From a bacterium (GTDB lineage: Bacteria; Elusimicrobiota; Elusimicrobia; Elusimicrobiales; UBA9959), in the NCBI GenBank assembly GCA_021789695.1, contig JAJYJH010000002.1, positions 62,001-126,000 of the forward strand: a DNA stretch of 64,000 nucleotides. Direction: 5' to 3'. A program made the translations under genes and the position numbers. How positions within the stretch are numbered: position 1 is the stretch's first letter; each line of letters starts with the position of its first letter. A model generated the notes under the pieces. That model was given only the letters and a program-made list of their open reading frames with translations. It searched no databases and was not told the origin of the DNA. This document shows positions 42,908 through 62,198 of this stretch, one piece after another.

Positions 42908-45250
42908 CTAACGCTTTCCGGCCTTTTTTATGGCGGCCAGCACCCTGTCCGGAGTGAACGGCGCGTCGAAGAGCCTCACCCCGCAGGCCGCGTAGATGGC
43001 GTTCGCTATGGCCGGCAGCGGGCCGTTGATGCCTATCTCCGACACCGACTTGGCGCCGAAAGGCCCGGCCGGCTCCCAGGTCGGGATAATGAACGTGCGC
43101 ACCGGCGGGGTATCCGCGGCGGAAAGTATCTTATAGCGCCTAAAACTGGCGTTCAGCGGCGTCCCGTTGGAAGAGAATTCCAGTTCCTCCGACAGCGTGT
43201 GGCTGATGCCGTTGACCACGGCCCCGTCGTTCTGGCCCTCGGCCAGCTGCGGGTTTATCGCGGTGCCGCAGTCCACGCAGGAAACGTAGTCCAGCACCTT
43301 CACCTTCCCCGTCCCGGTATCCACCTCTACCTCGGCGAAGTTCGCCTGGAAAGGCGGCGGGGAGGTATGTCCGTAATGCGAGGCCGTAGCGCAGATCTGG
43401 TGCTGGTCGTAGTAGTAGAGCGACGTGTTGGCCACCTCGGAGAGCGCGCAGGAGGCGCCGTCCGCGGCGACCACCTTCCCTCCCTCCAGTCTGAGCGCCT
43501 CAGGCTTCTTGTCCAGGATCTTCGCGCCTACGGCCAGGACCATGTCCCTGACCTTCTCGGCGGCCTTCTTGGCGGCGCCGCCGGAGATGAACGTGGTGGA
43601 GGAGGCGTAAGCCCCGACGTCGAACGGAGTGACGTCGGTATCGGACGAAGTGACGACGATATCCTCGGTTTTCACTCCGAGCACTTCGGCCGCTATCTGG
43701 GCCAGTATCGTGTCGGAGCCGGTCCCCAGGTCGGCCGCGCCCACGAGCAGGTTGAACGAGCCGTCCTCGTTCATCTTTATCGTCGCCGAGGCCATGTCCA
43801 CCTCCGGGATACCGGAGCCCTGCATCATGCAGGCCGCGCCGACGCCGCGGCGCACCGGGCCGCTCTGCTTCGCGTATTTGGCCCGCTTCTCCGCCCACTT
43901 AATCTCGTCCATGCCTTTCTGGATGGCCTCGAACAGGCCGGTGGAGGTGATGACCTGTTCCACGCCTTCGCGGCCCTCGCCCATGGCCTTGAAGACCGGC
44001 GAACCTTCGCCCAGCTTTATGTAGTTCCTCCGGCGGAACTCCACCGGGTCCATGCCTATACTCTCGGCAAGCATATCCATCAGGCATTCCCACGCGAAGA
44101 AGCCCTGCGTGGCGCCGTAGCCGCGGTACGCGCCGGCCACCGGCATGTTGGTGTAGACGCTGCGCCCTACGAACCTGATATTGTTCTTCACCCTGTACAT
44201 CGGGATTGTATGGGAGCCGGAGCACATCATCACGGTCAGCGCGTGGGAACCGTAGGCGCCGGTGTTCAGCGTTATCTCCATCTCGGCGTCGGTGATAGTG
44301 CCGTCGTTCTTCACGCCGGCCTTCATGCGGCAGACCGCCGGATGGCGCGTGCGCGACGAGACGAAGGTCTCCTTGCGGGTGTATTCGAGCTTAACGGGGC
44401 GCCTGGTCTTCAGCGCGAGCGCGGCCACGATATCCTCTAGCACCTCCTGCTTGCTGCCGAAGCCGCCGCCGATGCGCGGCTTTATCACGCGGATCTTCTT
44501 GACCGGGAGCTTCAGCGCCTGCGCGACGATGCGCCGCACGTGGAACGGCACCTGCGTGGAGGTGCGCAGCACGACCCGGCCGAAGTTGTCGAAATAGGCT
44601 ATACTCGTGTGGGGTTCCAGCGCGCAGTGCTGCAGGTACGGGATGGACCAGCTGTGCTCCAGCACGTGGTCCGCTTCCTTGAACCACTCGCCGTTCTTCA
44701 CCTCGAAGTCGAACTTGGCCGCGATGTTGCGCCTGGCGTCGGGGATGTTCTTGGAATCCGGCTCGTCGTGGATTACCGGCGCCCCGTCCTTCATCGCCTC
44801 GAACGGGTCCAGCACGGCGGGAAGCACTTCGTAGTCCACCTTTATCTTCGAGACGGCCTCCTGCGCCGCCTCGGGGGTCTCGGCGGCCACCGCGGCAACG
44901 CGGTCGCCGACGTAGCGCACCTTGCTGTCGAGCGTATAGGTGTCGTAAGGGGACGGCTCCGGATAGCCCTGCCCGGCCGTGGTATGCGGCACGCGCGGCA
45001 CGTCCTTGTAGGTCAGCACGGCCTTGACGCCCGGCACTTTCAGCGCGGCGGAGACGTCTATCTTCTTTATGCGGGCGTGCGCGTGCGGGCTCCACAGGAG
45101 TTTGGCGTGGAGGAGGCCCTTGAACTCCTGGTCGTCGGCGAAAACGGGCTCGCCGCAGGCCAGGCCCAGCGCGTCCTGCTTGCGCACCGGCTTGTTGACT
45201 ACCTTGAGGTCTTTGGCGTCCATGCTGGTTTCGGTCCTGGAAACTGTCAT
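42908..45250 (-). CDS. Molybdenum hydroxylase large subunit, set 1 (XdhA-like)
   Basis: 780 residues of the xanthine oxidase family, carrying the molybdopterin cofactor. GGGFGSKQE (about 260), GAYRGYGATQGFF and the C-terminal GPFGAKSVSEIGINGPLPAI with catalytic Glu (about 735) are conserved. Segments such as DTDVTPFDVGAYAS and NTGAYGSHAL resemble E. coli XdhA, so a purine or similar N-heterocycle is the probable substrate, but the substrate pocket cannot be decided here. Last gene of the array; overlaps its 2Fe-2S subunit by four bases. Confidence 0.9.
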   Translation of the reverse strand: MTVSRTETSMDAKDLKVVNKPVRKQDALGLACGEPVFADDQEFKGLLHAKLLWSPHAHARIKKIDVSAALKVPGVKAVLTYKDVPRVPHTTAGQGYPEPSPYDTYTLDSKVRYVGDRVAAVAAETPEAAQEAVSKIKVDYEVLPAVLDPFEAMKDGAPVIHDEPDSKNIPDARRNIAAKFDFEVKNGEWFKEADHVLEHSWSIPYLQHCALEPHTSIAYFDNFGRVVLRTSTQVPFHVRRIVAQALKLPVKKIRVIKPRIGGGFGSKQEVLEDIVAALALKTRRPVKLEYTRKETFVSSRTRHPAVCRMKAGVKNDGTITDAEMEITLNTGAYGSHALTVMMCSGSHTIPMYRVKNNIRFVGRSVYTNMPVAGAYRGYGATQGFFAWECLMDMLAESIGMDPVEFRRRNYIKLGEGSPVFKAMGEGREGVEQVITSTGLFEAIQKGMDEIKWAEKRAKYAKQSGPVRRGVGAACMMQGSGIPEVDMASATIKMNEDGSFNLLVGAADLGTGSDTILAQIAAEVLGVKTEDIVVTSSDTDVTPFDVGAYASSTTFISGGAAKKAAEKVRDMVLAVGAKILDKKPEALRLEGGKVVAADGASCALSEVANTSLYYYDQHQICATASHYGHTSPPPFQANFAEVEVDTGTGKVKVLDYVSCVDCGTAINPQLAEGQNDGAVVNGISHTLSEELEFSSNGTPLNASFRRYKILSAADTPPVRTFIIPTWEPAGPFGAKSVSEIGINGPLPAIANAIYAACGVRLFDAPFTPDRVLAAIKKAGKR

Positions 45251-45756
45251 TTCTTCCTCCCGCGGGCCATTTTGGCGGCGGCGTTCTTAACGGCTTCCAC
45301 CTGCTTGACGTAACCGGTGCAGCGGCACAGGTTCCCGTCCAGCGCCCTGCGGATCTCGGCCTCGGTGGGCTTCGGGTTGTTGTCCAGCAGGTGTTTGGAC
45401 GAAAGTATCATCCCCGGTATGCAGAAGCCGCACTGCACGGCGCCCGCCTCCACGAAGGCCTCCTGCAGCGGGTGAGGCTCGTGCACCGACCCCAGGCCCT
45501 CTATGGTGGTTATCTCCCCGTTATGGGCCGTCACGGCGGGGGTCAGGCAGCCGAGCACCGGCCTGCCGTTGAGGATCACGGTGCAGGAGCCGCAGTCGCC
45601 GGTGTCGCAGCCCTTCTTGGTCCCCTTCCAGCCGTGGCGGCGCAGCGCGTCGAGCAGCGACTCGGAGTTCCGTACCGAAAGCGTCGTCTTTCCCCCGTTG
45701 ACCGTGACGGTCACGGTGAAAAGTCCGTCCTTGGTTTCAAGTATCTCGTTCTTCAT
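45247..45756 (-). CDS. Molybdenum hydroxylase 2Fe-2S subunit, set 1
   Basis: 169 residues with two [2Fe-2S] clusters: plant-type C50, C55, C58, C70 (KKGCDTGDCGSCTVILNG) and the alpha-helical cluster C109, C112, C144, C146 (QCGFCIPG, LCRCTGY). Passes electrons from the Mo site to FAD. Start taken at the ATG (MKNEILETK); a GTG three codons earlier overlaps the ribosome site. Confidence 0.94.
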   Translation of the reverse strand: MKNEILETKDGLFTVTVTVNGGKTTLSVRNSESLLDALRRHGWKGTKKGCDTGDCGSCTVILNGRPVLGCLTPAVTAHNGEITTIEGLGSVHEPHPLQEAFVEAGAVQCGFCIPGMILSSKHLLDNNPKPTEAEIRRALDGNLCRCTGYVKQVEAVKNAAAKMARGRKK

Positions 45757-45766
45757 GTTCCTCACC

Positions 45767-46576
45767 TTAGAGAGAAGCTATGAAACGCCCCAGCAGGGCG
45801 GCGCCGGCGGCGGCGCGGTATTCCCCCGCGCGGGCCGCCTCCAGCTCCGCGGAGAAGGCGGCGGGTCCGGACCCGGCGGCGCCCAGTATCGCCTTCTCGG
45901 CCTCGGCGGCGCGGAAAGGCTTGGGCGACAGCGCCCCGACGGCCACGCGGGCCTTCGCGACCTTGCCGCCCCTCTTCTCGGCCGCCAGGAAAAGCGTTAT
46001 ATACGACTCCCAGCTGGAATCCGTCTTGGCCAGCTTGACGAACTCGCACCTCCATTTCGAGGCCGCGGCCGGGAAGAGCACCTCTGTGATCAGGCAGTTG
46101 GCGCCGGGGCGCAGCCGCGGGGAGGCCGCGTAGAGCTCCGGCAGGCCAAGCAACTCGGAACCCTTGGAGGAAACCACCCGGACCTTGGCGTCGAGCCCCA
46201 GCAGGACCACCGGGAAGATGTTGAAGGAGTGCGGGCGGGCTATGTTGCCGCCGATGGTCGCCATGTTGCGGACGAGCTGGCTGGAACAGGCCGCCGCCGC
46301 CCTGGAAACTATGCCGCCGGCCCAGGCGCGGCAGGCCTTCGAATTGTCGATCTCGTCGAAGGTGGCGCCCGCGCCTATCACGAGGCCGCCCCCCTGCAAC
46401 TTTATGCCCTTGATCGGCAGGGCCTTCAGGTCCAGGTAGGTCTCGACGGTATCCGGCAACGTCTTGGCGACGAGCGTGCCTCCCGCCAGGGCCATGGCCT
46501 TGTATTTCCTGCTGTTCAGCATGGCCAGCGCATCCTTCACCGAGGACGGACAGGCGTAATATCTGATGTTCTTCAC
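45767..46576 (-). CDS. Molybdenum hydroxylase FAD subunit, set 1
   Basis: 269 residues of the CoxM/XdhB type. FAD-binding ALAGGTLVAKTLPD and SQLVRNMATIGGNIARPHS are present; the C-terminal CO_deh_flav_C domain has VAVGALSPKPFRA. Eleven bases ahead of the 2Fe-2S gene of set 1 and 37 bases after the other FAD-subunit gene, so the two FAD genes are back to back. Confidence 0.92.
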   Translation of the reverse strand: MKNIRYYACPSSVKDALAMLNSRKYKAMALAGGTLVAKTLPDTVETYLDLKALPIKGIKLQGGGLVIGAGATFDEIDNSKACRAWAGGIVSRAAAACSSQLVRNMATIGGNIARPHSFNIFPVVLLGLDAKVRVVSSKGSELLGLPELYAASPRLRPGANCLITEVLFPAAASKWRCEFVKLAKTDSSWESYITLFLAAEKRGGKVAKARVAVGALSPKPFRAAEAEKAILGAAGSGPAAFSAELEAARAGEYRAAAGAALLGRFIASL

Positions 46577-46613
46577 GGTTCCTCCTGCGTGGATAGATTC
46601 CGGCGCCGGGCGG

Positions 46614-47456
46614 TCAGGCCGCCGCTGACTCCAGCGCCCTGGACAGCAGCACGCCGCACATCTCGCGGCGGTAGGCGGCCTCGCTCCGGGCGTCGGTGAT
46701 GGGCGAGACCTCGGACTTGATCAGTTCGGCGGCCTCCGCGGCTGTCTCCGGGGAAAGCTCCCGTCCGGCCAGCCACGCCGAGGTCCGGGCGGCGTAAAGC
46801 GGCACCGGGGCCACCGAGCCCAGCGCCACCGCGGCCCGCTTCACCCTGCCGCCGGAAATTTCGGCCGCCAGCGCCACCGCGGCCTTGGAGATGCCGAACC
46901 GGGCGCGGGGCCCGAGCTTGAAATAGGCGCCGGCATGCGGGCGTTTGGGCACTTCGAAACCGAGTATCAGCTCATCCCTCTTCAGCGCCGTCCTCTTGGG
47001 CCCGGTGAAAAGATCCTTGAGCGGCAGCCTGCGCCTCGCGTCTTTCAGCGCCAGCAGGACGGAGGCGTCCTCCGCCACCAGCGCGCAGACGCCGTCTGCG
47101 CATGGACTGGCGTTGGCCGCGTTGCCGCCCAGGGTGGCCATGTTGCGCAGGCTGGGGCTGGCGAAATGCGGTATCGCGGCCGACAGCACCGGGCACCATT
47201 TCCGCACCGGGGCCGAGCGCTCCAGCTCGGAGATCTTGACCGCCGAGCCGATGAAAAGGGAGGAGGCTGTCTCCTTTACGGCCCTCAGTTCCGGGAGATC
47301 GCCGATGTCTATCCAGCACCCGGAATGGTCCGCGCCGGCGTTGTCGGCCGTCACCAGGTCCGTGCCTCCGGCCAGGTAGCGGCGGGAGGACGGCAGGGAG
47401 GGCAGCTGCTTCCAGAGCTCTTTGAGCGAGGCCGGCTTTGCTATGAATTCAGGCAT
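46614..47456 (-). CDS. Molybdenum hydroxylase FAD subunit, set 2
   Basis: 280 residues. YLAGGTDLVTADNAGADH, LRNMATLGGNAANASPCADGV and the C-terminal VALGSVAPVPLYAAR mark the CoxM-like FAD subunit. NAxPxAD resembles the sequence seen in XdhB-type subunits. It overlaps its 2Fe-2S partner by eight bases. Divergent from the set 1 subunit over most of its length, so the duplication is old or the sets were acquired separately. Confidence 0.92.
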   Translation of the reverse strand: MPEFIAKPASLKELWKQLPSLPSSRRYLAGGTDLVTADNAGADHSGCWIDIGDLPELRAVKETASSLFIGSAVKISELERSAPVRKWCPVLSAAIPHFASPSLRNMATLGGNAANASPCADGVCALVAEDASVLLALKDARRRLPLKDLFTGPKRTALKRDELILGFEVPKRPHAGAYFKLGPRARFGISKAAVALAAEISGGRVKRAAVALGSVAPVPLYAARTSAWLAGRELSPETAAEAAELIKSEVSPITDARSEAAYRREMCGVLLSRALESAAA

Positions 47457-47925
47457 TTCTGTTGTCGCGGGCCTTTTCCACGGCGGAAAGGACCTTCTCG
47501 TAGCCGGTGCATCGGCACAGGTTGCCGGTGAGCTCCTGCTTTATGTCCTCCAGCGTGGCGTCCGGCTTGCGGCGCAGCAGGGCCTCGGAGGCGATGATCA
47601 GGCCCGGCGTGCAGAAGCCGCACTGTACCGCTCCCTCCTCCATGAAGGTCTTCTGCAGCGCGTGCAGCCCGCCGTCGCGGCCCTTCAGGCCCTCTATAGT
47701 GACCAGTTCCTTGCCGTGCAGCTGCACGGCCATCATCAGGCAGGAATTTACCGCTTTACCGTCGAGCAGCACCAGGCAGGCGCCGCACTCTCCCTCGCCG
47801 CAGCCTTCCTTGGTGCCCTTCAGTCCCAGGTCCTCGCGGATGAAGTCAAGCAAAGAGCGGGAGGATGGGATCTCCCGCTCTATGGCAAGGCCGTTCACCT
47901 TGCACTTGAGAGCGAACGGCCGCAT
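47449..47925 (-). CDS. Molybdenum hydroxylase 2Fe-2S subunit, set 2
   Basis: 158 residues. Clusters bound by C42, C47, C50, C62 (EGCGEGECGACLVLLDG) and C102, C105, C137, C139 (QCGFCTPG, LCRCTGY). Its start lies only one base from the stop of the beta-barrel protein gene upstream, so the barrel gene is really part of the same operon. Confidence 0.94.
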   Translation of the reverse strand: MRPFALKCKVNGLAIEREIPSSRSLLDFIREDLGLKGTKEGCGEGECGACLVLLDGKAVNSCLMMAVQLHGKELVTIEGLKGRDGGLHALQKTFMEEGAVQCGFCTPGLIIASEALLRRKPDATLEDIKQELTGNLCRCTGYEKVLSAVEKARDNRNA

Positions 47926-47926
47926 T

Positions 47927-49108
47927 TCAGAACTTGGTCCCCACTCCGAACACGAACCTGGAGCCGGTGAAGGTCACGTTGTTCGTAACCCCGGAGTAGC
48001 CCCCGTTAAAGGAAGTGGCATTTATCTCGGCACGCCACTCGGCGAAGAACGTGGCATTGTCCGTGTTAAAGCGCACTCCGACCGGCACGCGGAACATGAA
48101 GCCGATGTCCGTCTCGTTCAACAGAGTGTTCTGAACGTCCCTGATGACGGTCGACTGGATGTTGTTAATGGACATACCCAGTCCGAGGCCGAGATAGAAC
48201 TGGGCCTTGGTCATGGTCCTGAGCAGCAGGTCCCCGCTCAAACCAAGCGAGGTCACGTTAAGGTAACCTGCGGGGATGGTGACATTGGGATATATGTAGC
48301 CGTTGACAATGGTGCCGCGCTGAGAATCGATGTAGTGTTTAGAAAGCGAGAACTCAAAATCTCCGCCGATGGCGCTGTCGCCGTAGCCGCCCACGCGGAA
48401 GCCCACCGGGCCCACGCCGCTTGTAAGGAGACCGGTCTGCTTAACGTTATATCGGGTTGCGTCCCAGGTGATGTCGGTGGTCTGGGCGCCCACGCCGCCT
48501 ATCACGTCGAAGAAGCCGTATTGGTTCGGCCCGCGGACCGGCGCCGTCTTCTTGACGGGAGCCGCGGCGACCGGCTGTTCCTCAGGCTGGGCCGCGGCCT
48601 GCGGCTGCGGGGCCGTGGTGTCGTTCCCGACCCAGTCCTTGGTAATGTCCACCTGCGAGGCTCCTATGGCCTGCGCGGTCTCGGTCTTTATCATGCGGGC
48701 GTTGACCTCTATCTGCCCGTTGTCGGTCTGCACCAGCGTGCCGGTGATGATGGCCTCCACACCCAGCACCTTGCCCAGTTTCTGGGTTGAGCTGGCGTCC
48801 ATGATGCCGGAGGACTGCAGTTTCAGCTCGTTCATCACCTTGTCGAGCGCGCTGCGCTCGATGATGTCGAACTTGTGCATGTTGATCATCTTCACGGTCA
48901 GCCGCGCGGCGATGACCGAACCGTCCTTGCTGGCCGTGTCCTTGGTGTCGGCGTAAGAGAACGGAATGATCGCGATCTTCTGTCCCTGCAGCGCGATCCC
49001 GGCCGCAGTCAGGTCGTTGGCCAGTTTGTCGTACTGATCCTCGGCCCTGGCGGCCGGAGCGAGCGCCAGCAGACTCAGAGCCAGCAGCGTCTTAAAGGTG
49101 TTCTTCAT
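47927..49108 (-). CDS. CsgG/FlgO-like domain fused to an outer-membrane beta-barrel
   Basis: 393 residues with a Sec signal (about 1-22, ending ARAED). Residues 30-165 resemble the CsgG/FlgO fold: QKIAIIPFSYADTKDT, FDIIERSALDKVMNEL, LGKVLGVEAIITGTLVQ. A Pro/Ala-rich linker (about 167-190) leads to a predicted barrel (about 195-393) ending in Phe (GSRFVFGVGTKF), the usual Omp sorting end. Sits inside the hydroxylase operon between the set 2 large and small subunits. A role in substrate uptake or surface assembly is possible but unproven. Confidence 0.75.
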   Translation of the reverse strand: MKNTFKTLLALSLLALAPAARAEDQYDKLANDLTAAGIALQGQKIAIIPFSYADTKDTASKDGSVIAARLTVKMINMHKFDIIERSALDKVMNELKLQSSGIMDASSTQKLGKVLGVEAIITGTLVQTDNGQIEVNARMIKTETAQAIGASQVDITKDWVGNDTTAPQPQAAAQPEEQPVAAAPVKKTAPVRGPNQYGFFDVIGGVGAQTTDITWDATRYNVKQTGLLTSGVGPVGFRVGGYGDSAIGGDFEFSLSKHYIDSQRGTIVNGYIYPNVTIPAGYLNVTSLGLSGDLLLRTMTKAQFYLGLGLGMSINNIQSTVIRDVQNTLLNETDIGFMFRVPVGVRFNTDNATFFAEWRAEINATSFNGGYSGVTNNVTFTGSRFVFGVGTKF

Positions 49109-49120: not shown

Positions 49121-51400
49121 TTAACCCTTCTTAAGTTCCTTCCAGACCTTCTCCGGCAGCAACGGGACGGACTTCACCCGCGCGCCGCAGGCGTTCTTTA
49201 TGGCGTTGGCCACGGCGGGCGCCACGCCTATCAAAGGAACTTCCCCCATGCCCTTGGCCCTGTACGGCCCCTCAGCGTAGGGTTTTTCTATGAAAGTTAT
49301 ATCATATTCGGGTTTATCTGCGGTAGTGGCTATCACGTAATCGGTAAAATTGGGGTTCACCATTATGCCGTTCTTATAGACCAGGTTCTCGTACAGGGCC
49401 CAGCTCATGCCCTGCAGTATCCCCCCCTGGGCCTGGCCCAGGGCCAGGCGCGGGTTGACTATCTTCCCCACGTCGTAAGCGGCCCAGATCTTCTTGACGC
49501 GGGTAACGCCCGTCTTCAGGTCCACCTCCACCTCGGCCGCGTCGGCCGAGTAGGAGTAGACACCGTAGGCATCGCCCTGGCCGTCCCGCAGGCGGAAGGT
49601 GGTGCGGGGGGCGGCGTACCAGCCCTGTTCGGCCATCTTCAGGCGGCGGTTCCAACACTCCGCCACCACGGCCTTGAAAGCCACTGACCTGCCGCCCATA
49701 GAGAACACGCCGCCGGCGGCCGTCATCCCCCCGGAGGGGTCGGCGCCAAGGCCCGTCAGCATGGAGTGGGCGGTCTTGAAAACGCGTTCGCGTATAGGCG
49801 TCGCGGCCTCTATGATCGCGTTACCGCTCATCAGCGTGGTGCGGCTGGCCACCGTAGGACCGGAGTCCGGCACCTTGGAGGAGTCCACCTCCTCCACGCG
49901 CACGCCGGCGTAGGGGGCGTTGAGCGTCTCGGCCGCTATCTGCGCCAGCACGGTCAGCGCGCCCTGCCCCATCTCGGCGTTGCCGACATTGACGCCGACG
50001 GAGCCGTCCTTATAGACGTTCACTAAGGCGCCGGCCCTGTCCAGGTAGCGACCCTTGGCGCCTAGCCCCACGCCGTAATAAACGGCCGAGAAGCCTATAC
50101 CCGTGGCGATGTCACCCCTGACCTGCGGCGTCGCCGCTTTCTTATCCCAGCCCGATCTGCTCCTGACGGCCTGCACCAGTTCGGAAAGCCCGCAGGAGGA
50201 CTTGAGCCTCTGGCCGGTGACGGTCCTGTCTCCGGGCTCCAGCAAATTCTTCAGGCGGAACCGCACCGGGTCCAAGCCGGCCTTCTCCGCCAGCTCGTCT
50301 ATAAGCGACTCCTGCGCGAAGCAGATCTGCGGCTGGCCGAAGCCGCGGAAGGCCCCGGCCGGCACCTTGTTGGTGGCGGCGGCGAAGGTCTCGATGCCGA
50401 CGTTGGGAATTTTGTAGGGCCCGGCCGCGTGCACGGTGCCGCGCCAGAGCACTATCGGCGAGAGGGTGGAGTAAGCGCCCCCGTCCAGGACGTACTTGAC
50501 GCGGCAGGCCGTTATCTTCCCGTTCTTGTCGGCGGCGTAGGACACGCGCGCCCAACCGGGGTGGCGCTTGGACATACTCTGGAAGTCCTCCTTACGCCCG
50601 TAGATCAGCTTCACCGGCCGGCCGGTCTTGGCCGCACAGAGGGCGGCGTGCGAAGCCACCAGCGCCGGCACGTCCTCCTTGCCGCCGAAGCCGCCGCCGG
50701 TGACGGTCTGGAGTATCTTGACCTTGTGGTAGGGGATGCCCAGCGCGGCGGACACCGCGTCCAGCACGTAGAACGGGCACTGCGTGGTGCTGTGCACCGT
50801 CATGCCGCCGCCGGCCTCCGGCACGGCTACGGAGCCCTGCGTCTCCAGATAGGCGTGCACCTGGTAATTGGTAGAGAACTCCCCCTCGACGGTGAAAGCG
50901 GCCTTCCTGAAGGCCTCGTCGACCGCCCCCCTCTTTATGACGAAGCTGGAGATGACGTTATCCCTGCCGTAAATCTTCACCGCACCCTTTTCCAGCGCCT
51001 TCAGCGGATCGTCCACGTACGGCAGCTCCCTGTACTTTATCTCGACGAGCGCCGCGGCCTTCCTTGCCGCGCGGGCCGTATCGGCCACGACCAGCGCCAC
51101 GGTCTCGCCCGCGAAGCGGGCTTCCCTCTCCGGCAGGAAAGGGTAGTCCTGCATGACTACAGGCCACTTGTTGACGCCCTTTATGTCCCTGTACGTGACC
51201 AAAGTCACATAGCCGGGCACCTTGCGCGCCTTCGCGTCTGAGATGGAGAGTATTTTTATCCTCGGCCTGGGTGAGCGCACGGCCGCCGCGTGCAGCATGC
51301 CGGCGAAGTCCCTGTCAGCCGCGTACTGCGCCGCACCGGTGGCCTTTATCTCCGCGTCCTTGCGCGGCAGCGACTTGCCGACGTAAGAGAGTTTTTCCAT
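49121..51400 (-). CDS. Molybdenum hydroxylase large subunit, set 2
   Basis: 759 residues from the ATG giving MEKLSYVGKSLPRKD. Mo-cofactor motif GGGFGGKED (about 235), AFRGFGQPQICFAQE, and GPYRAKGMGEVPLIGVAPAV with catalytic Glu near 719. MGQGALTVLAQIAAETL is a further cofactor contact. Clearly different from set 1 in all motifs, so the two enzymes probably hydroxylate different positions or substrates. It follows xdhC with one base between. Confidence 0.92.
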   Translation of the reverse strand: MEKLSYVGKSLPRKDAEIKATGAAQYAADRDFAGMLHAAAVRSPRPRIKILSISDAKARKVPGYVTLVTYRDIKGVNKWPVVMQDYPFLPEREARFAGETVALVVADTARAARKAAALVEIKYRELPYVDDPLKALEKGAVKIYGRDNVISSFVIKRGAVDEAFRKAAFTVEGEFSTNYQVHAYLETQGSVAVPEAGGGMTVHSTTQCPFYVLDAVSAALGIPYHKVKILQTVTGGGFGGKEDVPALVASHAALCAAKTGRPVKLIYGRKEDFQSMSKRHPGWARVSYAADKNGKITACRVKYVLDGGAYSTLSPIVLWRGTVHAAGPYKIPNVGIETFAAATNKVPAGAFRGFGQPQICFAQESLIDELAEKAGLDPVRFRLKNLLEPGDRTVTGQRLKSSCGLSELVQAVRSRSGWDKKAATPQVRGDIATGIGFSAVYYGVGLGAKGRYLDRAGALVNVYKDGSVGVNVGNAEMGQGALTVLAQIAAETLNAPYAGVRVEEVDSSKVPDSGPTVASRTTLMSGNAIIEAATPIRERVFKTAHSMLTGLGADPSGGMTAAGGVFSMGGRSVAFKAVVAECWNRRLKMAEQGWYAAPRTTFRLRDGQGDAYGVYSYSADAAEVEVDLKTGVTRVKKIWAAYDVGKIVNPRLALGQAQGGILQGMSWALYENLVYKNGIMVNPNFTDYVIATTADKPEYDITFIEKPYAEGPYRAKGMGEVPLIGVAPAVANAIKNACGARVKSVPLLPEKVWKELKKG

Positions 51401-51401
51401 G

Positions 51402-53786: not shown

Positions 53787-53788
53787 CG

Positions 53789-55044: not shown

Positions 55045-55641
55045 CTATAGCAGGAGCGCGGCGTAATCCTCCGGAGTGTCGAAGTCCCGGATTATCTCCG
55101 GGTCCTTCACGTCCAGGTCGGCCACTTTCACCGACGCATGGTGGGTTACCCAGTGCAGGCCTTTTTCCAGCGGACCCTCGAGGCACAGATGTTTATGCGC
55201 GGCCGGGATGATTATCGGGTGGCCGCGCTTAAGTCTGGAATCGGATTTTCTCAGCGTCCTCGGAATCACCAGGAAATCCTTATTCTCGTCCCAGAACTCT
55301 ATTATCCGCCTGTAGGTCTCCACCGGCACGGTGGGCTGGTCCGCGAGGCAGACCATATAGCCCTCCGCCAACTGCGAGACGTCTTTCAGGCCGACGCGCA
55401 GCGAGGAAAGCTGGCCGTGCTCCGGGTGTGGGTTAAGCGCCACTTTTTCCCCCGCAGGCGGCCAGCACGTCAATATTTCGCGCGAGGCGCTGCCCAGCAC
55501 CACGACGCGGTCAGTGACGCCGGCCCTGCGCAGCGCCTCGCAGACATGTTCGATGAAAGGCTTCCTGTTCCACTGCAGCAGGGCCTTGGGACGCCCCATC
55601 CTGGAGGAGTCCCCGGCCGCCAGAACTATCGCCGAGAGCAT
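55045..55641 (-). CDS. mocA: Molybdenum cofactor cytidylyltransferase (MocA-like)
   Basis: 198 residues of the MobA-like nucleotidyltransferase fold. LAAGDSSRMGRPKALLQW is the nucleotide-binding loop; LADQPTVPVETYRRI and GHPIIIP are typical of MocA. MocA makes the molybdopterin cytosine dinucleotide used by xanthine dehydrogenase-type enzymes. It is one base from pfkA and 23 bases from the permease. A role as MobA-like or FADP transferase is less likely given the neighbours. Confidence 0.87.
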   Translation of the reverse strand: MLSAIVLAAGDSSRMGRPKALLQWNRKPFIEHVCEALRRAGVTDRVVVLGSASREILTCWPPAGEKVALNPHPEHGQLSSLRVGLKDVSQLAEGYMVCLADQPTVPVETYRRIIEFWDENKDFLVIPRTLRKSDSRLKRGHPIIIPAAHKHLCLEGPLEKGLHWVTHHASVKVADLDVKDPEIIRDFDTPEDYAALLL

Positions 55642-55642: not shown

Positions 55643-56755
55643 CTAGTCCCCGAAGCTGATTCCGAGGGTACGCGCGGTCAGCACGGTATCGCAGTCAAGC
55701 GGCACGGTCTTCATGCGGCCTGAGACCTCCTTCAGAGGAACGTAACGCACCTGCGGGGGGTCCAGCGCGACCATCACCCCGCTGCGGCCCTCAGCCAGCG
55801 CCCGCACGGCGGCAGCGCCGAAACGGAGCGAAAGAAGGCGGTCGAAAGTGGTGGGGCTGCCGCCGCGCTGCAGGTGGCCAAGCACCACGGTGCGGCATTC
55901 CTTGCCGGTCAGGGCTTCCAGTTCCCCTGCCGCGCGCTCGCCGGCGCCGCCCAGTTTGTCGGCGCGCCCAAGCTCGCGCGAAACCACGGAATACCCGCCG
56001 TCCCTGGGTTTAGCCCCCTCGGCCACCACCACGATGCCGAAATGCTTGCCAAAACTCTCCATGTCCCCTATCTTCGAGGCCACCTTGCGGATGTCGTAGG
56101 GAATTTCCGGGATAAGTATAGCGTCGGCCGTGCCCGAGACTCCGGAGTTGAGCGCTATCCAGCCGGCGTAGCGTCCCATCACCTCCACCACCATCACGCG
56201 GCGGTGGGCCTCGGCCGTGGAGTGAAGCCTGTCCAGACATTCCGTGGCGAACGAGACCGCGCTGTCGAAGCCGAACGTCGCCACGGTCTTCTCCAGATCG
56301 TTGTCTATGGTCTTAGGCACGCCGACCACGCGCAGGCCTTTCTCGGCGAGCGCGTTGGCGATGGCCAGCGAACCATCTCCCCCTATGGCCACCAGCGCGT
56401 CAATCTTCCGCTTCCGGAAAGCCGCCGCCAGCTCGCCAGAGCGGTCCTTTTCGCGCCATTTGCCGTCGCGCCCTTTGACCGGGTATTTGAGCGGGTTCCC
56501 CTTGTTGGTCGTGCCCAGTATCGTGCCGCCCAGATGCGTGATGCCGCGCACGCTGCGGCGGTGCAGTTGCACCAGCCCGCCGTCGGGATAGTCCTCTGGG
56601 TTCAACATCCCGTTGTACCCGTCCCTGATGCCGAAGACCTCCCAGTCCCTGTTGCGCGCCGCTATCACGGCCGCGCGGATCACGGCGTTCAGCCCTGGCG
56701 CGTCCCCGCCGCCGGTGCTGAGCGCTATTCTTTTTATCTTCTTTCGCGCCGGCAT
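55643..56755 (-). CDS. pfkA: 6-phosphofructokinase family protein, mixed G/K active-site type
   Basis: 370 residues. ALSTGGGDAPGLNAVIRA is the phosphate-binding start; GGDGS (125-129) and PKTIDND (147-153, catalytic Asp) form the active site. In this family Gly in GGDGS marks ATP users, while Lys in PKTIDND is common in pyrophosphate users. The combined G/K type includes ATP enzymes of actinobacteria, so ATP is my first choice and PPi cannot be excluded. Unexpected among purine catabolism genes, with only one base to mocA and 16 to the amidohydrolase. Confidence 0.87.
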   Translation of the reverse strand: MPARKKIKRIALSTGGGDAPGLNAVIRAAVIAARNRDWEVFGIRDGYNGMLNPEDYPDGGLVQLHRRSVRGITHLGGTILGTTNKGNPLKYPVKGRDGKWREKDRSGELAAAFRKRKIDALVAIGGDGSLAIANALAEKGLRVVGVPKTIDNDLEKTVATFGFDSAVSFATECLDRLHSTAEAHRRVMVVEVMGRYAGWIALNSGVSGTADAILIPEIPYDIRKVASKIGDMESFGKHFGIVVVAEGAKPRDGGYSVVSRELGRADKLGGAGERAAGELEALTGKECRTVVLGHLQRGGSPTTFDRLLSLRFGAAAVRALAEGRSGVMVALDPPQVRYVPLKEVSGRMKTVPLDCDTVLTARTLGISFGD

Positions 56756-56771: not shown

Positions 56772-58148
56772 TCATATCCCGGCCTTCCTGTAGAGGGAAG
56801 CCGCGGCCCTGGCGGCGCGCTTCGTCAACTTGCGCTCATCCACGCTCACCAGGCGGCCGTTCTTCACCACAACCTTGCCGTTGACTATGGTGTACTTTGT
56901 GCGGTGCGAGGCGCCGCAGAAGAGCAGCGAGGCTAGCGGGTCGCTGTGGGAGCCGATGAAGTCCAGGCCGCTCACGTCGAAGACGGCTATGTCCGCGGCC
57001 TTGCCCGGCTCTATGGAGCCGATATCGGAACGGCCCAGCACCGCGGCGCCGTCGCGCGTGGCCAGTGCCAGCGCCTTGCGGGCCGGCATCGCTTTCACGT
57101 TATCCAGGCGGTGCACCAGCATACACTGGCGCGCCTCGCCCAGCATGTCCGAGGAATCGTTGGAAGCGGAGCCGTCCACACCCAACCCCACGGGCACGTT
57201 GTGCCGCAGGAACATGGGTATCGGGGCTATGCCGGAACCCAGCCGCAGGTTGGAGCACGGACAGTGCGCCACGCCGGTGCGGGTCTTCCCCATCCTCTTC
57301 GCCTCGGCCTCATTGATGTAGACGCAGTGCGCGAACCAGGCGTTGCCCTCCTCCACCCAGCCTACGGACTCCATGTACTCGAGCGGCCGCATCCTGAAGA
57401 GCTTTTTACAGAAGGCCTCCTCGTCCCTGGTCTCGGCCAGGTGGGTGTGCATGCGCACGCCCCATTTTTTGGCCATTTCGGCGGTGATCTTCAGCAACTC
57501 CGTCGTGACCGAGAAAGGAGAGCACGGTGCCATCGCCACATGCGTCATCGCGAACTTCTGCCTGCCGTGGAATTTATTTATCAGCCGTTCGCAGTCCTTT
57601 AGGATAAAATCCTCTTTCTGCACCACCGAATCCGGCGGCAGGCCGCCCTTGGAGCGGCCCCGCGACATGGAACCGCGCGTGGCGGTGAAGCGTATCCCCA
57701 GTTCGCGCGCGGCCTCTATCTGCGTGTCTATGAAGAAACCGCTATCCTTCTCAGGGAACAGGTAAAGGTGGTCGGAGCTCGTAGTGCAGCCGGTCAGCAA
57801 CAACTCGCCCAACCCAGCCTGCGTGCTCGCGTAGATCGCCTCGGGATTTACGCGCTTCCAGATCTCGTAGAGATAGACCAGCCAGTCGAAAAGTTCGGCG
57901 TCCTGCACCTTAGGCAGGTTGCGCGTCAGCGTCTGGTAAAGGTGGTGGTGGGTGTTAACCATGCCGGGCATCACCACGCAGCCTTTCGCGTCTATGACGG
58001 TATCGGCCTTTACCTTGAGCCCCTTGCCGACCTTCTTTATCTCCGGCCCCTCGATGTATACGTCTCCCCCCTTGATCTCGCGGCCGGCGCTGTCCATAGT
58101 CGCCAGCACCAGCGCGTTCTTTATGAGAAGGGTTCTAGGTCGCATCAA
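56772..58148 (-). CDS. 8-oxoguanine deaminase-like amidohydrolase
   Basis: 458 residues (a second ATG follows at once). Metal ligands: HxH in NTHHHLYQTLTRN, His in MHTHLAETRDEE, His in WFAHCVYI and Asp in GVDGSASNDSSD. NTHHHLYQTLTR-LPKVQDAELFDWL and SASNDSSDM are close to characterised 8-oxoguanine deaminases, which give uric acid. Hydroxyatrazine-type hydrolases belong to the same group, so another amino-heterocycle is possible. First gene of the long minus-strand array ending at 42908. The array promoter is not clear. Confidence 0.83.
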   Translation of the reverse strand: MMRPRTLLIKNALVLATMDSAGREIKGGDVYIEGPEIKKVGKGLKVKADTVIDAKGCVVMPGMVNTHHHLYQTLTRNLPKVQDAELFDWLVYLYEIWKRVNPEAIYASTQAGLGELLLTGCTTSSDHLYLFPEKDSGFFIDTQIEAARELGIRFTATRGSMSRGRSKGGLPPDSVVQKEDFILKDCERLINKFHGRQKFAMTHVAMAPCSPFSVTTELLKITAEMAKKWGVRMHTHLAETRDEEAFCKKLFRMRPLEYMESVGWVEEGNAWFAHCVYINEAEAKRMGKTRTGVAHCPCSNLRLGSGIAPIPMFLRHNVPVGLGVDGSASNDSSDMLGEARQCMLVHRLDNVKAMPARKALALATRDGAAVLGRSDIGSIEPGKAADIAVFDVSGLDFIGSHSDPLASLLFCGASHRTKYTIVNGKVVVKNGRLVSVDERKLTKRAARAAASLYRKAGI

Positions 58149-58182
58149 GGCCTCCGGAATCCAAGCGTTTCGAGTATTATAG

Positions 58183-58188
58183 TAAAAT
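58183..58188 (+). promoter_or_regulatory. -10-like TAAAAT ahead of the kinase remnant
   Basis: TATAG-TAAAAT lies 12 bases before the ATG of the decayed kinase gene. Confidence 0.35.
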
Positions 58189-58200
58189 CAAATAATCGCT

Positions 58201-58352
58201 ATGCTCAATCCCGGCGACAAGATCGGCCAGTATTCCGTAAACGCGAAGATAGGCCGCGGCGGCATGGGCGTGGTTACAAGGCTCACGACGCGACGCTGAA
58301 GCGCGGCGGCGCATCCGATAAGGACCGGGGGCGCTCTGATATTTTTTCTTGA
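58201..58352 (+). pseudogene. Remnant of a Ser/Thr protein kinase N-terminus
   Basis: From ATG 58201 the frame reads MLNPGDKIGQYSVNAKIGRG then GMGVV, the glycine-rich loop of a bacterial Hanks-type kinase. A one-base loss at about 58272 shifts it; the next frame carries YKAHDATLKRG, the expected continuation. Homology ends before the VAIK lysine and a stop comes at 58350-58352. So only subdomain I is left, broken by a frameshift and a deletion. The rest of the gap 58149-58397 is promoter sequence. Confidence 0.8.
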
Positions 58353-58358
58353 AAAGTT

Positions 58359-58364
58359 ATAAAA
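58359..58364 (+). promoter_or_regulatory. -10 box of the PreT-PreA fusion operon
   Basis: TATAAA in an AT-rich stretch, 34 bases before the ATG at 58398, which has a CAGGAG ribosome site. Confidence 0.4.
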
Positions 58365-58397
58365 TAAAGACATGAACATCGCAGACAGGAGCGCCAC

Positions 58398-60854
58398 ATG
58401 AAGCAGAGCATCCAGTTCCTTTCCGACGCGCAGCTGAAGTCCGAGGCCGAGCGCTGCCTCTACTGCGAGGACAAGCCTTGCCAGAAGGCCTGCCCCGCCG
58501 ACTGCTCCCCGGCCGATTTCATCATGGCCGCGCGCCAGGCGGAGAAGTCGGACTTCAAGCGCTCCGCCGCGCTGATCATGGGGCACAACACCTTCGGCGG
58601 CGTCTGCGGCGCGGTCTGCCCCGACTGGTTCTGCGTGAAGGCCTGCTCGCGCAAGCTCTTCGACAACCCCATCAATATCCCCGCCGTGCAAGCGACCGTG
58701 GTGCAGAAAGCCAAGGAACTGAGCGCCATGCCCAGGTTCAAAAAGGCCAGGCCCAACGGTAAGAAAGTAGCGGTGATCGGCGCCGGCCCGGCCGGCCTTT
58801 CGGCCGCAGGCACGCTGGCGCAACTGGGCTACAAAGTGGAGATACTGGAAAAAGACCAGCAGGCCGGCGGAGCCTGCAATCTTATTCCCGACGCGCGCTT
58901 TCCGAAGGAAGTGCTGCGCACGGAGATAGAATGGGTAAAGTCGCTCGGCGACATAACGATCAAGACCGGCTCCGCCGTGAAGGACCCGGCCGCGCTGCTC
59001 AAGAAGTACGATTCGGTGATAGTGACCGCCGGCGTAGAGGAGCAGCTGAAGCTGCGCATCGAGAACGAAGAGCTAGGCGTGGAAGGCCTGGAGTACCTGC
59101 GCAACACCGGCAAGTACAAAGTCAAGGGCAGGAATGTAGCGGTCATCGGTGGCGGCGCCGTGGCCGCCGACTGCGCGATGAAGGCGCTGGAGCGCGGCGC
59201 CGCCCGCGCGGAGATCTTCACCCGCAAGAACATAGGAGACATACAGCTGCCCGAGCACGAGCTCAGGGACATCCTGAAGGCCGGCGTCAACATCAACGGC
59301 CGCTCCCGCATTACCGGGATCATTAGGGGTGGAAAGGGAATAAAGATAGTCCGCCTCGACGACAAGGCCAAAGATATCCCCGGCACGGAGCAGGTCCGCA
59401 CGGACGTGCAGTTCACCGTGCTCGCCATCAAGAACATCCCCGTCTTCGAGGACAGGAAACAGAAAGGCGTGTTTCTGGCCGGCGACTGCCGCAACGGAGC
59501 GGCCACCGTGGTGGAAGGCACCGCCTCCGCCAAGAACGCCGCGATGCAAGCCCACGCCTGGATGCAGGGTAAAAAAGCCCCGGCCATCCCGGACAACAAG
59601 AAGAGCCACGTCATCCTGGCCGGCCGCGACCTCAGGCCGGTGGACCTTGCCACCGATTTCTTCGGCCGCAAGCTGAAGTCACCGTTCATCATCTCCGCCT
59701 CCCCACACTCCGACGGCTACGACCAGGTAAAGCGCGCCTACGAGGCCGGCTGGCCCGGCGTCGTGATGAAGACCGCTTTCGACGGACTGCACATTCATAT
59801 TCCGTCAGAATACATGGTGACCTTCACCGGCAGCACCTACGGCAACTCGGATAACGTCTCCGGCCACCCGCTGGACCGCGTCTGCAAAGAGGTGGCGCGC
59901 CTCGTGAAGGACTACCCGGACCGCCTGACCGCCGCCTCCACCGGCGGCCCGGTGACCGGCAACGACGAGCACGACCGCAAGGGCTGGCAGACCAACACGC
60001 TTAAACTCGAGAAAGCCGGCGCGATGGCGATAGAATACTCGCTGTCCTGCCCGCAGGGCGGCGACGGCACCAAGGGCGACATAGTCTCGCAGGACCCGGA
60101 ACTCGCGGCCAAAATCATAGGCTGGGTGATGGAAGTCTCCGACCCGGAGATACCGAAGCTCTTCAAGCTGACCGGCGCGGTCACCGCCATCTGGCAGGTG
60201 GTCAACGCGATAAAACAGGTCTACGCGAAATACCCGCACAAGAAGGCCGGCATAACGCTCGCGAACTCTTTCCCGGCACTCGCCTTCCGCAAGCGCCTCT
60301 CTGGCAAGGGCGACTGGGAAGAGGGCATGATAGTGGGCATGAGCGGCGAGGGCGTGGCCCCGATCAGCAACCTGACCATCTCCAAAGCGGTCAACCTCGG
60401 CGTACCGATCTCCGGCAACGGCGGCCCTATGGACTACAAGGCGGCGGCGCAGTTCCTGGCGCTCGGCGCCAAGTCCGTGCAGTTCTGCACCGTCGTGATG
60501 AAATACGGCTTCGGCGTGATAGGGGAGTTAGAGAGCGGCCTCAGCCACATGCTGGAGGAAAAGGGCTACAAGTCCGTAGGCGAATTCATCGGCTGCGCGC
60601 TGCCGCACCCCGTCACCAGCTTCCCGGACCTCACTCCGGTCAAGAACATCCCGTCGGTGGACGCGGACCTCTGCCGCCACTGCGGCAACTGCGAGCGCTG
60701 CGGCTACCTGGCCGTGAAGCTCGACGGCCAGAAGGTGCCGCAGTTCGACGCGTCCAAGTGCATAGGCTGCTCGCTGTGCGTGAAAAAGTGCTTCTCCGGA
60801 GCGCTGAAGATGCGCCGGCGCACCGCGGCCGAACTCAAGGCCTGCCCAGAATAG
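58398..60854 (+). CDS. PreT-PreA fusion, dihydropyrimidine dehydrogenase-like, lacking the catalytic Cys
   Basis: 818 residues. The N-terminal part has GltD-type Fe-S Cys (C20, C23, C28, C32, C36 and C70, C74, C79, C83), FAD motif GAGPAG (128-133) and an NADP-type GGGAVA (about 251). From about 405 comes a PreA-like flavin barrel with LSCPQGG (about 547), then a 2[4Fe-4S] ferredoxin end (C759, C762, C765, C768; C788, C791, C794, C798). In mammalian DPD the acid Cys671 sits in LACGQDPEL; here the match is DIVSQDPEL, with V563 and S564. So it is a flavin reductase of the DPD type whose acid is changed. It is likely to reduce a different heterocycle. Confidence 0.87.
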   Translation: MKQSIQFLSDAQLKSEAERCLYCEDKPCQKACPADCSPADFIMAARQAEKSDFKRSAALIMGHNTFGGVCGAVCPDWFCVKACSRKLFDNPINIPAVQATVVQKAKELSAMPRFKKARPNGKKVAVIGAGPAGLSAAGTLAQLGYKVEILEKDQQAGGACNLIPDARFPKEVLRTEIEWVKSLGDITIKTGSAVKDPAALLKKYDSVIVTAGVEEQLKLRIENEELGVEGLEYLRNTGKYKVKGRNVAVIGGGAVAADCAMKALERGAARAEIFTRKNIGDIQLPEHELRDILKAGVNINGRSRITGIIRGGKGIKIVRLDDKAKDIPGTEQVRTDVQFTVLAIKNIPVFEDRKQKGVFLAGDCRNGAATVVEGTASAKNAAMQAHAWMQGKKAPAIPDNKKSHVILAGRDLRPVDLATDFFGRKLKSPFIISASPHSDGYDQVKRAYEAGWPGVVMKTAFDGLHIHIPSEYMVTFTGSTYGNSDNVSGHPLDRVCKEVARLVKDYPDRLTAASTGGPVTGNDEHDRKGWQTNTLKLEKAGAMAIEYSLSCPQGGDGTKGDIVSQDPELAAKIIGWVMEVSDPEIPKLFKLTGAVTAIWQVVNAIKQVYAKYPHKKAGITLANSFPALAFRKRLSGKGDWEEGMIVGMSGEGVAPISNLTISKAVNLGVPISGNGGPMDYKAAAQFLALGAKSVQFCTVVMKYGFGVIGELESGLSHMLEEKGYKSVGEFIGCALPHPVTSFPDLTPVKNIPSVDADLCRHCGNCERCGYLAVKLDGQKVPQFDASKCIGCSLCVKKCFSGALKMRRRTAAELKACPE

Positions 60855-60860
60855 GATATC

Positions 60861-62198
60861 ATGAAGAAGAACAACCCCAAGACCATCCTGATCAAGAACG
60901 GCACCATCGCCACCCTCGGCGAGAAGAACAAGGTTCTCTACAATCACGCGCTGCTGATAGAGGGCGGACTGATAAAGAGGATAGCCCCGCAGAAGACGTT
61001 CAGGGGCAAGTACGCCAAAGTAATCGACGCCTCCGGCAAGCTGGTGTTGCCTGGTTTCATCAACGCGCACATGCACTTCTACAGCACCTTCGCGCGCGGG
61101 CTTGGCAAGGCCGCCCCGTCGAAGAACTTCGTAGAGATACTCAATAACCTCTGGTGGCGGCTGGACAAGCAGCTCACGAACGAGGACTCCTACTACAGCG
61201 CGCTCGGCCCGCTGATCGACGCGGTGCGCAAGGGCACGACCACGATAATAGACCACCACGCCAGCCCGTTCTCCATAGCCGGCTCCCTCTCGGCCGTAGA
61301 AAGGGCCGTGCGCGGGACCGGCTTGCGCGCGAATCTCTGCTACGAGGTCTCCGACCGCGACGGCAAGGAGAAGGCGAAGGAGGGCCTCGAAGAGAACTCC
61401 TCGTTCATCGCAGCCTGCAGTGCCCGCGGAGACAACATGGTCAAGGCGCTGTTCGGCCTGCACGCCTCCTTCACGCTAGGCGACGAAACGCTGGAGGAGG
61501 CCGCCTACCGCGGACACAAGACGGGGACCGGCTTCCATATCCACCTCGCAGAGTCAACGTCCGACCAGCTGCAGTGCGAGTCGCATCACAAGATGCGCGT
61601 CGCCGAGCGGCTGCGCGACTTCGGCATACTGGGCCGCAAGTCCATAGCGGCCCACTGCGTGCACGTCAACGCGGCCGAGATCGAGATACTCCGGGAAACC
61701 GGCACCGCGGTGGTTCACAATCCACAATCCAACGCCAACAACGCCGTCGGCATCGCCGACATCACCGAGATGAGCGACAGCGGCGTTCTGGTCGGCCTCG
61801 GCACCGACGCGATGACAGTTAATATGCTAGAGGAGGTCCGTTGCGGCCTCTGGCTGCAGCACCTCAAGCGCGACCCGGCCTGCGGCTTCATGGAGACCGC
61901 CAACGCGCTGCTCGTGAACAACGCGAAGATCGCCGGCCGTTATTTCGGCAACTTGGGCGAACTGAAGCCCGGCTTTGCGGCGGACATAGCGATAATGGAT
62001 TACCTTCCCCCCACGCCGATGGACGCCTCCAACTTCGCCGGCCACGTCATTTTCGGCGTCAGCCAGAGCGCGGTGGACACCACCATCTGCGCCGGAAAAG
62101 TGCTGATGGAGAACAAGGTGCTCAAGCTGGACCTCGACGAGGAAGAGGTCGCCCGCAAGTCAACGGAGCTCGCCAAGAAGCTCTGGGCCAGGTTTTAG
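60861..62198 (+). CDS. ssnA: SsnA-like amidohydrolase
   Basis: 445 residues. Metal ligands in NAHMHFYS, FHIHLAES, AAHCVHVN and GLGTDAMTVNM. The segments AVRKGTTTIIDHHASP and ARGLGKAAPSKNFVEILNNLWWRLD match the SsnA group, genetically tied to selenium-dependent molybdenum hydroxylases and purine catabolism in Enterobacteria and Clostridia. It starts six bases after the PreT-PreA fusion and must be cotranslated with it. Ring-opening hydrolysis or deamination of a purine product is likely. Confidence 0.9.
   Translation: MKKNNPKTILIKNGTIATLGEKNKVLYNHALLIEGGLIKRIAPQKTFRGKYAKVIDASGKLVLPGFINAHMHFYSTFARGLGKAAPSKNFVEILNNLWWRLDKQLTNEDSYYSALGPLIDAVRKGTTTIIDHHASPFSIAGSLSAVERAVRGTGLRANLCYEVSDRDGKEKAKEGLEENSSFIAACSARGDNMVKALFGLHASFTLGDETLEEAAYRGHKTGTGFHIHLAESTSDQLQCESHHKMRVAERLRDFGILGRKSIAAHCVHVNAAEIEILRETGTAVVHNPQSNANNAVGIADITEMSDSGVLVGLGTDAMTVNMLEEVRCGLWLQHLKRDPACGFMETANALLVNNAKIAGRYFGNLGELKPGFAADIAIMDYLPPTPMDASNFAGHVIFGVSQSAVDTTICAGKVLMENKVLKLDLDEEEVARKSTELAKKLWARF

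Follow-up and report, generated by a model that had tools for sequence, protein, structure and literature searches.

The stretch of DNA analysed here (the window, 64,000 nt of contig JAJYJH010000002.1, assembly GCA_021789695.1) belongs to an Elusimicrobiota genome of 2.45 Mb (63 contigs, 95.7% complete), and its nearest named relatives are Elusimicrobia assemblies. Between positions 42908 and 62198, the window contains a divergent gene block whose products probably form the upper half of a selenium-free reductive pathway for the degradation of purines; this degree of confidence applies to the upper half only. On the minus strand, from 58148 down to 42908, thirteen genes follow one another, i.e. 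those for a deaminase, a phosphofructokinase, MocA, a CitMHS transporter, a cyclase, XdhC, the molybdenum (Mo) subunit MoB, a CsgG-like protein, the 2Fe-2S and FAD subunits of hydroxylase set B, the FAD and 2Fe-2S subunits of set A, and the Mo subunit MoA. On the plus strand, from 58398, the gene for an 818-residue fusion protein is followed by that for the aminohydrolase SsnA. A first-pass annotation of the window had described a block with two full Mo hydroxylase sets, XdhC, a MocA-like enzyme, and proteins resembling a deaminase, SsnA and dihydropyrimidine dehydrogenase (DPD). All genes that it named are open reading frames at the positions it gave, and they have Pfam or NCBIfam matches. 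Gene families, linkage, tree placement and residue patterns were read from the sequence; we infer every substrate, the electron donor, and the assignments of a HyuA-like and a pyridoxal phosphate (PLP) enzyme.

The reductive urate pathway was resolved biochemically in gut bacteria in 2025 (PMC12507026), and the chemistry assumed here from urate onward is taken from the main text of that paper and from passages of the commentary PMC12990295. In the proposed pathway, the deaminase would convert 8-oxoguanine to urate, an entry point suggested by the deaminase gene, and set B would oxidise hypoxanthine and xanthine to urate. Set A would then take an oxygen off urate, yielding yanthine (2,8-dioxopurine). 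The fusion would pass electrons from NAD(P)H via FAD and iron-sulfur clusters to FMN and reduce yanthine to dihydro-yanthine, and SsnA would hydrolyse the reduced ring to ureidomethyl-hydantoin, pulling the reaction forward. A HyuA-like hydrolase, YgeW together with a carbamate-kinase-like enzyme (carbamoyl phosphate to ATP), YgeY and a lyase, possibly a threonine-synthase-like PLP enzyme in the place of YgeX, would complete the route to pyruvate and ammonia. Oxygen-independent breakdown by deamination, hydroxylation, reduction by a flavoprotein and ring opening by SsnA, as outlined in the first-pass annotation, fits the evidence and the main text of PMC12507026. The flavoprotein would probably not reduce urate itself, as had been supposed there, because set A, which carries marks of XdhD, would first make yanthine.

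A variant that is compatible with this proposal, and that we consider possible but rather unlikely, is a partial pathway: the upper half would operate as described, and the organism would stop at the ureido compound, excreting it or taking only the released nitrogen. The lack of a YgeX over the cut-off in 18 genomes, the weak scores of HyuA and carbamate kinase, and the missing linkage of the lower-half genes in the window's genome would suit this variant, but the genome does contain well-conserved YgeY and YgeW, and genes of the two halves are found close to each other in other lineages.

The proposed fused reductase and its partner SsnA

The fusion (58398..60854, plus strand), a putative NAD(P)H-dependent yanthine reductase with FAD, FMN and 4Fe-4S clusters, is followed by SsnA (60861..62198, plus strand), for which opening of the reduced purine ring is proposed. 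SsnA passes both curated cut-offs (TIGR03314, 498.9 vs 455.5 bits; NF005540, 535.5 vs 444 bits). The SsnA gene is located directly downstream of the fusion in 22 of the 24 named loci, and in the other two the contig ends within the fusion; in one locus (L050), the SsnA gene is in two pieces. The deaminase gene is located upstream and divergent in 22 of the 24 loci, about 0.1 to 3.7 kb from the fusion. The arrangement of fusion, SsnA and deaminase is not due to chance. In the window, the deaminase (56772..58148, minus strand) scores over the curated cut-off for 8-oxoguanine deaminase (NF006055, 629.5 vs 532 bits), for which 3hpa and 7ww2 are solved relatives, and is proposed to convert 8-oxoguanine to urate.

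We estimated the presence of the fusion and SsnA in 294 genomes of the phylum, using an E value of 1e-100 or better as the limit for both. The fusion was found in 66 genomes, including 45 of the 46 of the window's family (a family size taken from the order of listing). SsnA was likewise found in 66 genomes, with 61 of these over the curated cut-off. Both genes are present in 61 genomes, only the fusion in 5, only SsnA in 5, and neither in 223 (Fisher p 8e-51); outside the window's family, the respective numbers are 18, 3, 5 and 222 (p 4e-20). The genomes are related, so these p values are not strict probabilities. A true absence of the fusion from the 46th family genome (G268) was considered and rejected, since contig C97 of this genome starts within the first part of the fusion gene (L133). 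In three of the five genomes with the fusion only (G132, G282 and G259), it lies at a contig end or at most 0.5 kb from it; in G211, SsnA is in two pieces (L013), and G149 is 79% complete. Among the genomes with SsnA only, G273 has it on a 3.8 kb contig; in G122, the neighbourhood of SsnA includes relatives of both Mo types, with no fusion on the fetched stretch. The remaining three belong to family f22.

In two lineages, a gene of the glutamate dehydrogenase family adjoins SsnA (L154:10550-11803 and L155:7372-8652, under the curated cut-offs), and no fusion is present on these stretches. The glutamate dehydrogenase-family protein possibly captures released ammonia.

The N-terminal half of the fusion is Fer4_20/GltD-like and the C-terminal half DHO_dh/PreA-like, and the protein aligns with pig DPD and with E. 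coli PreT plus PreA (32% and 31%, respectively). It is not a YgfK: the TIGR03315 score is 133.8 vs 835.3 bits, and the match is in the N-terminal half alone. The cysteines at positions 20, 23, 28, 32, 36, 70, 74, 79, 83, 759, 762, 765, 768, 788, 791, 794 and 798 are the same in all ten rows compared and would suffice for four clusters. Modelling with AlphaFold from ten aligned rows gave the fusion a mean predicted local distance difference test score of 45.6, and the model was not used.

Eight positions, which we take to be those of the pig DPD pocket as located on the pig DPD alignment, were compared between fusion and PreA rows. All 50 distinct fusion rows keep N483, S550, C551 and N623, with Ser or Thr at position 624. 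All 50 also carry D485, V487 and S548, where five of five PreA rows have Glu, Ile and Asn. These differences bear on the question of whether the fusion is a real dihydropyrimidine dehydrogenase, so that the plus-strand pair would degrade uracil or thymine and the Mo hydroxylases would be neighbours with a separate purine role. The domain order of pig DPD, the catalytic Cys and two pocket Asn are indeed kept, and among named proteins the FMN half matches PreA best, but the curated PreA cut-off is missed (209.7 vs 335 bits), the three replacements are without exception, the partner is SsnA, and the pair of fusion and SsnA mostly co-occurs with XdhD-type sets. We therefore regard a function in pyrimidine degradation as very unlikely.

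The comparison was extended to two UacX-type rows from Cetobacterium (4 differences apart), which wholly lack the catalytic Cys loop (SCPxG) of the fusion; this protein was called UacX-type from its position, and the assayed UacX is the C. difficile protein, outside this comparison. These comparisons suggest that the fusion was recruited separately from PreT-PreA stock, and it may represent a further type of yanthine reductase, by sequence neither YgfK nor uracil-type PreA, and unlike the UacX-type protein.

The two molybdenum hydroxylases

Pfam subunit domains were found in both Mo hydroxylase sets, which are all encoded on the minus strand. Set A consists of MoA (42908..45250), a 2Fe-2S subunit (45247..45765; Fer2_2/Fer2), and an FAD subunit in the position of YgfM (45767..46576; FAD_binding_5, 87 bits, with a weak C-terminal domain, 26 bits). 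MoA has 38.7% identity to E. coli XdhD (520 bits, blastp) and 33.9% to E. coli XdhA (416 bits). In a tree of 32 rows (none of them an aryl-CoA reductase, and three of them, col_xdh, sal_xdhD and ec_xdhA, flagged as long branches), the MoA-type rows form the sister clade of the XdhD proteins of E. coli and Cetobacterium (support 100/98), and XdhA is outside. According to the main text of PMC12507026, Glu606 of XdhD, which is not found in XdhA, may perhaps orient urate toward yanthine. A Glu at this position, embedded in a GEG motif (MGEG in MoA), is present in 26 of 26 MoA-type rows, i.e. 24 different genes including the window's MoA, and in 0 of 11 MoB-type rows. Based on the tree and Glu606, set A is assigned to the XdhD-type Mo hydroxylases and would turn urate into yanthine. 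It is very unlikely that set A instead has nothing to do with purines and is an oxidoreductase of aryl-CoA compounds or aldehydes: among solved proteins, MoA is most similar in sequence to the alpha subunit of 4-hydroxybenzoyl-CoA reductase (369 bits), a reductive dehydroxylase, and some genomes have the fusion and set A at separate places, but E. coli XdhD scores higher (though by blastp, a different program), the IGEG/MGEG and AKSxSEIGxNG motifs are common to MoA and XdhD, and sets of this type are linked to the deaminase (L135-L137) and to SsnA (L159).

Set B consists of MoB (49121..51424), a 2Fe-2S subunit (47449..47925; Pfam) and an FAD subunit (46614..47456; FAD_binding_5 and CO_deh_flav_C). 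The best solved relative of MoB is the xanthine dehydrogenase (XDH) of R. capsulatus, and MoB keeps all four residues E232, R310, F344 and E730, which we take to be the purine-pocket positions of that enzyme as located on the alignment of the two proteins. In MoB-type rows, E232 and R310 are conserved in 11 of 11, F344 in 10 of 11 (one Tyr), and E730 in all 10 that reach this position. A xanthine dehydrogenase-type subunit converting hypoxanthine and xanthine to urate is thus proposed; the curated XDH equivalog cut-offs are not reached (PucD, 529.7 vs 783.7 bits; XdhA, 482 vs 780 bits). In three genomes (G142, G110 and G203; L130, L132 and L143), MoB is not on the fetched stretch, and another XDH-type subunit with the same signature is located near the XdhD-type one; in two others (G152 and G219; L129 and L131), no XDH-type subunit was seen on the fetched stretch. 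Retention of a hydroxylase pair despite the exchange of one partner argues for two successive functions. On contig C4 of the window's genome (159909-161609 and 174367-175722), the gene for a third Mo hydroxylase, which shares 39% identity with residues 12-589 of MoA, and the HyuA-like gene are separated by about 13 kb.

Several observations weigh against the assignments made so far. MoA is under the curated XdhD cut-off (610 vs 1102 bits), a model that spans the fused 2Fe-2S domain and that the fused XdhD of Cetobacterium fails as well (1035 bits). The Glu606 residue by itself is not unique to the XdhD type: a Glu in this column, within other local motifs, also occurs in sal_xdhD, L065_2, L075_1 and L051_0, all outside the MoA and XdhD types, and the XdhD of Cetobacterium carries it without the GEG motif. 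E232 and R310 are missing even from E. coli XdhA, and the FMN half of the fusion is nearer to PreA (30.6%) than to the Cetobacterium UacX-type protein (23.5%). The three f22 genomes have an SsnA-like gene under the curated cut-off and neither the fusion nor a Mo set on the fetched stretch. The window's genome has no NCS2 urate/xanthine permease, which is present in 12 of 20 genomes.

Linkage adds to these points. A MoA match of at least 55% identity was found in 32 of 37 genomes searched; G080 and G009 have matches of only 34-35%, and none was found in G006, G003 and G034. The fusion is absent from G003 and G034 as well, and it is present in G080, G009 and G006, so that G006 and G009 have the fusion and SsnA with no MoA-type match and one of 35%, respectively. 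The fusion and the MoA type share a contig in just 14 of the 31 genomes with both, and in at least three genomes (G162, G030 and G035) long contigs place the fusion and set A at a distance of well over 15 kb; some of the other 17 genomes are fragmented assemblies. Only near the window's genus is the fusion firmly linked to set A. The first-pass annotation had named a lack of linkage between fusion and hydroxylases in related genomes as a refutation; the shared contigs agree with its expectation, the three genomes with distant genes do not, and the co-presence leaves the proposal unrefuted.

The lower half of the proposed pathway

The first-pass annotation reported no uricase, a negative that covers the window only, and no YgeX or YgeW. 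The latter holds for the window; genome-wide it holds for YgeX, which is over the cut-off in 0 of 18 genomes, but not for YgeW (636 vs 500 bits). YgeW and YgeY (567 vs 321.5 bits), both over their curated cut-offs, are located on contig C25 of the window's genome (L088), the carbamate-kinase-like and the threonine-synthase-like PLP enzymes on C1 (L089), and the HyuA-like enzyme on C4 (L062). An absence of the lower pathway because YgeW is not in the window was thus rejected. YgeY is over the cut-off in 18 of 18 genomes and YgeW in 12 of 18. The gene set had also been held to be distinct from the ygeX-type gut cluster; it appears to be rather a rearranged version, with YgeY and YgeW on another contig. 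The absence of selenium genes was confirmed as far as tested: selD is over the cut-off in 0 of 20 genomes, including the window's (weak matches in 19 of 20), and the selenium link that had been associated with SsnA and the hydroxylase sets was not found here.

Further points against a complete pathway concern these genes. They are unlinked to the island in the window's genome, and the diaminopropionate ammonia-lyase YgeX is missing as described. The HyuA-like protein reaches 349 bits (cut-off 393), and the neighbours of its gene, read by eye, look like housekeeping genes; the carbamate-kinase-like protein reaches 257 bits (cut-off 358). The PLP enzyme narrowly passes the threonine synthase cut-off (309.5 vs 303 bits), and it is also present in the fusion-negative genomes G003 and G034.

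In other genomes, the lower-half genes are closer together. YgeY, YgeW, carbamate kinase and the PLP enzyme are located within about 5-15 kb in G142 (L090), G045 (L092) and G009 (L091), and in L091 HyuA, SsnA and lower-half genes are linked. Like L091, the following three loci, which join genes of both halves, are from outside the window's family. An acidobacterial locus (L051) contains an XDH-type subunit, the fusion, SsnA, YgeY, the PLP enzyme and HyuA, with genes for a kinase, a sigma factor, methionine synthase and one unassigned gene in between. With unrelated genes in between, L154 contains SsnA, relatives of MoB (32%) and MoA (56%), a YgeW-like gene, carbamate kinase and the PLP enzyme, and L068 contains SsnA, the fusion and HyuA. 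A concentrative nucleoside transporter gene is located a few genes from the latter three (L068:713-2014, G018).

The PLP enzyme might simply be the genome's threonine synthase, a reading that is weakened by the following distribution. The homoserine kinase gene thrB is over the cut-off in 0 of 9 genomes of the family and in 6 of 6 genomes outside the order. Five of these six were searched with the PLP enzyme, and each carries, as a second gene, a more distantly related threonine-synthase-like one, which is on the thrB contig in four; the five distant genes form a clade of their own (100/100). G003 and G034, two genomes of the same order, likewise have no thrB over the cut-off; they carry the PLP enzyme but not the fusion, which speaks for a threonine synthase or for a role outside purine metabolism. 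The window's family may also rely on an unrelated homoserine kinase. From these patterns, we give a substitution of YgeX by the threonine-synthase-like enzyme a little less than an even chance.

Neighbouring genes and relation to known systems

The remaining genes of the block are also located on the minus strand. The XdhC-family maturation factor (51402..52217; XdhC_C and XdhC_CoxI) and the MocA-like Mo-cofactor cytidylyltransferase (55045..55641; TIGR03310, 138 bits, cut-off 186) match their families, yet remain under the equivalog cut-offs. Four genes had not been named in the first-pass annotation, i.e. those for a CsgG-like protein, an adenylate/guanylate cyclase, a CitMHS transporter and phosphofructokinase. 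The CsgG-like envelope protein (47927..49108; Pfam CsgG, 36 bits) is encoded inside set B and is probably not part of the pathway; its gene is absent from L048 and L073, where the 2Fe-2S and Mo subunits of set B adjoin. The cyclase with a HAMP domain (52284..53792; Pfam) is a frequent neighbour by synteny. The CitMHS-family protein (53789..55018; 153 bits) is, as a guess, a purine or anion transporter; its open frame begins at 55186, and the start at 55018 was chosen since the longer frame overlaps MocA. The 6-phosphofructokinase (55643..56755; NF002872, 353.7 vs 253 bits) has no obvious purine link, and in many relatives its gene is likewise flanked by those for MocA and the deaminase.

The two transcription units are separated by a divergent intergenic region (58149..58397), in which a promoter and terminator scan yielded one site of each, little above shuffled sequences. 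A frame-broken remnant of a Ser/Thr protein kinase gene is located there (58201-58330, plus strand), and L033, L034, L035 and L037 have a kinase of 850-odd residues at the same place, between deaminase and fusion (the L034 copy was checked against NCBIfam).

The E. coli cluster for reductive urate degradation comprises xdhD-ygfM, ygfK, ssnA, hyuA, ygeW, yqeA, ygeY and ygeX, as given in the main text of PMC12507026. The window's genome resembles it in having an XdhD-type Mo enzyme, SsnA, YgeW, YgeY, a carbamate-kinase-like protein and a reductase with an FAD half. In contrast to E. coli, a single PreT-PreA-like chain would take the place of YgfK, neither YgeX nor selD is over the cut-off, the 2Fe-2S subunit is separate from the Mo subunit, the island is split, and an 8-oxoguanine deaminase lies within the block. 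The UacX-UacY clusters of C. difficile and Cetobacterium (main text of PMC12507026; Cetobacterium locus L109) share the clustering of a DHO_dh/PreA-superfamily reductase with SsnA and XdhD, but UacX lacks the FAD half of the fusion, and a further difference is the presence of YgeW in the window's genome. Compared with pig DPD and E. coli PreT-PreA, the domain order, the catalytic Cys and the Fe-S motifs are shared, and the changed pocket and the partner SsnA differ; the fusion is about 200 residues shorter than pig DPD (818 vs 1025). By description only, it also resembles "Dehydrogenase X1", a DHOD-superfamily dehydrogenase that passages of Barba 2013 (PMC4016543) link to the same gene company, i.e. 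hyuA, ygeW, ygeY, ssnA and xdhABC.

The network figure of PMC12507026 already includes SsnA in Elusimicrobiota, and variants of the reductase are described in that paper; its main text mentions neither 8-oxoguanine nor groundwater. Among the matches listed for open-access literature on Elusimicrobia with uric acid or xanthine dehydrogenase, it is the sole relevant title. The kind of pathway is already known; what varies here is its arrangement, a fused reductase whose pocket is distinct, the pairing of two hydroxylases, and a candidate lyase.

The reductive urate pathway has so far been discussed as a topic of the gut and of gout. Its marks are near-universal in one Elusimicrobiota family, as judged by the fusion in the sampled genomes, and this family appears to be mostly free-living from the groundwater-style sample names of several relatives. 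At least one enzyme differs by sequence from both characterised reductases, and several concrete enzyme predictions follow that are cheap to test. We tentatively suggest, with somewhat more doubt than confidence, that this family has, as a core trait, a distinct selenium-free version of the pathway. Its yanthine reductase would be of a further kind, a single NAD(P)H-to-FMN chain derived from PreT-PreA stock independently of YgfK and UacX; it would be coupled to 8-oxoguanine deaminase and paired XDH and XdhD enzymes, and a diaminopropionate lyase recruited from threonine synthase would end the route. If true, work on urate could gain a self-contained enzyme that uses NAD(P)H, and the range of settings in which oxygen-free purine recycling occurs would widen.

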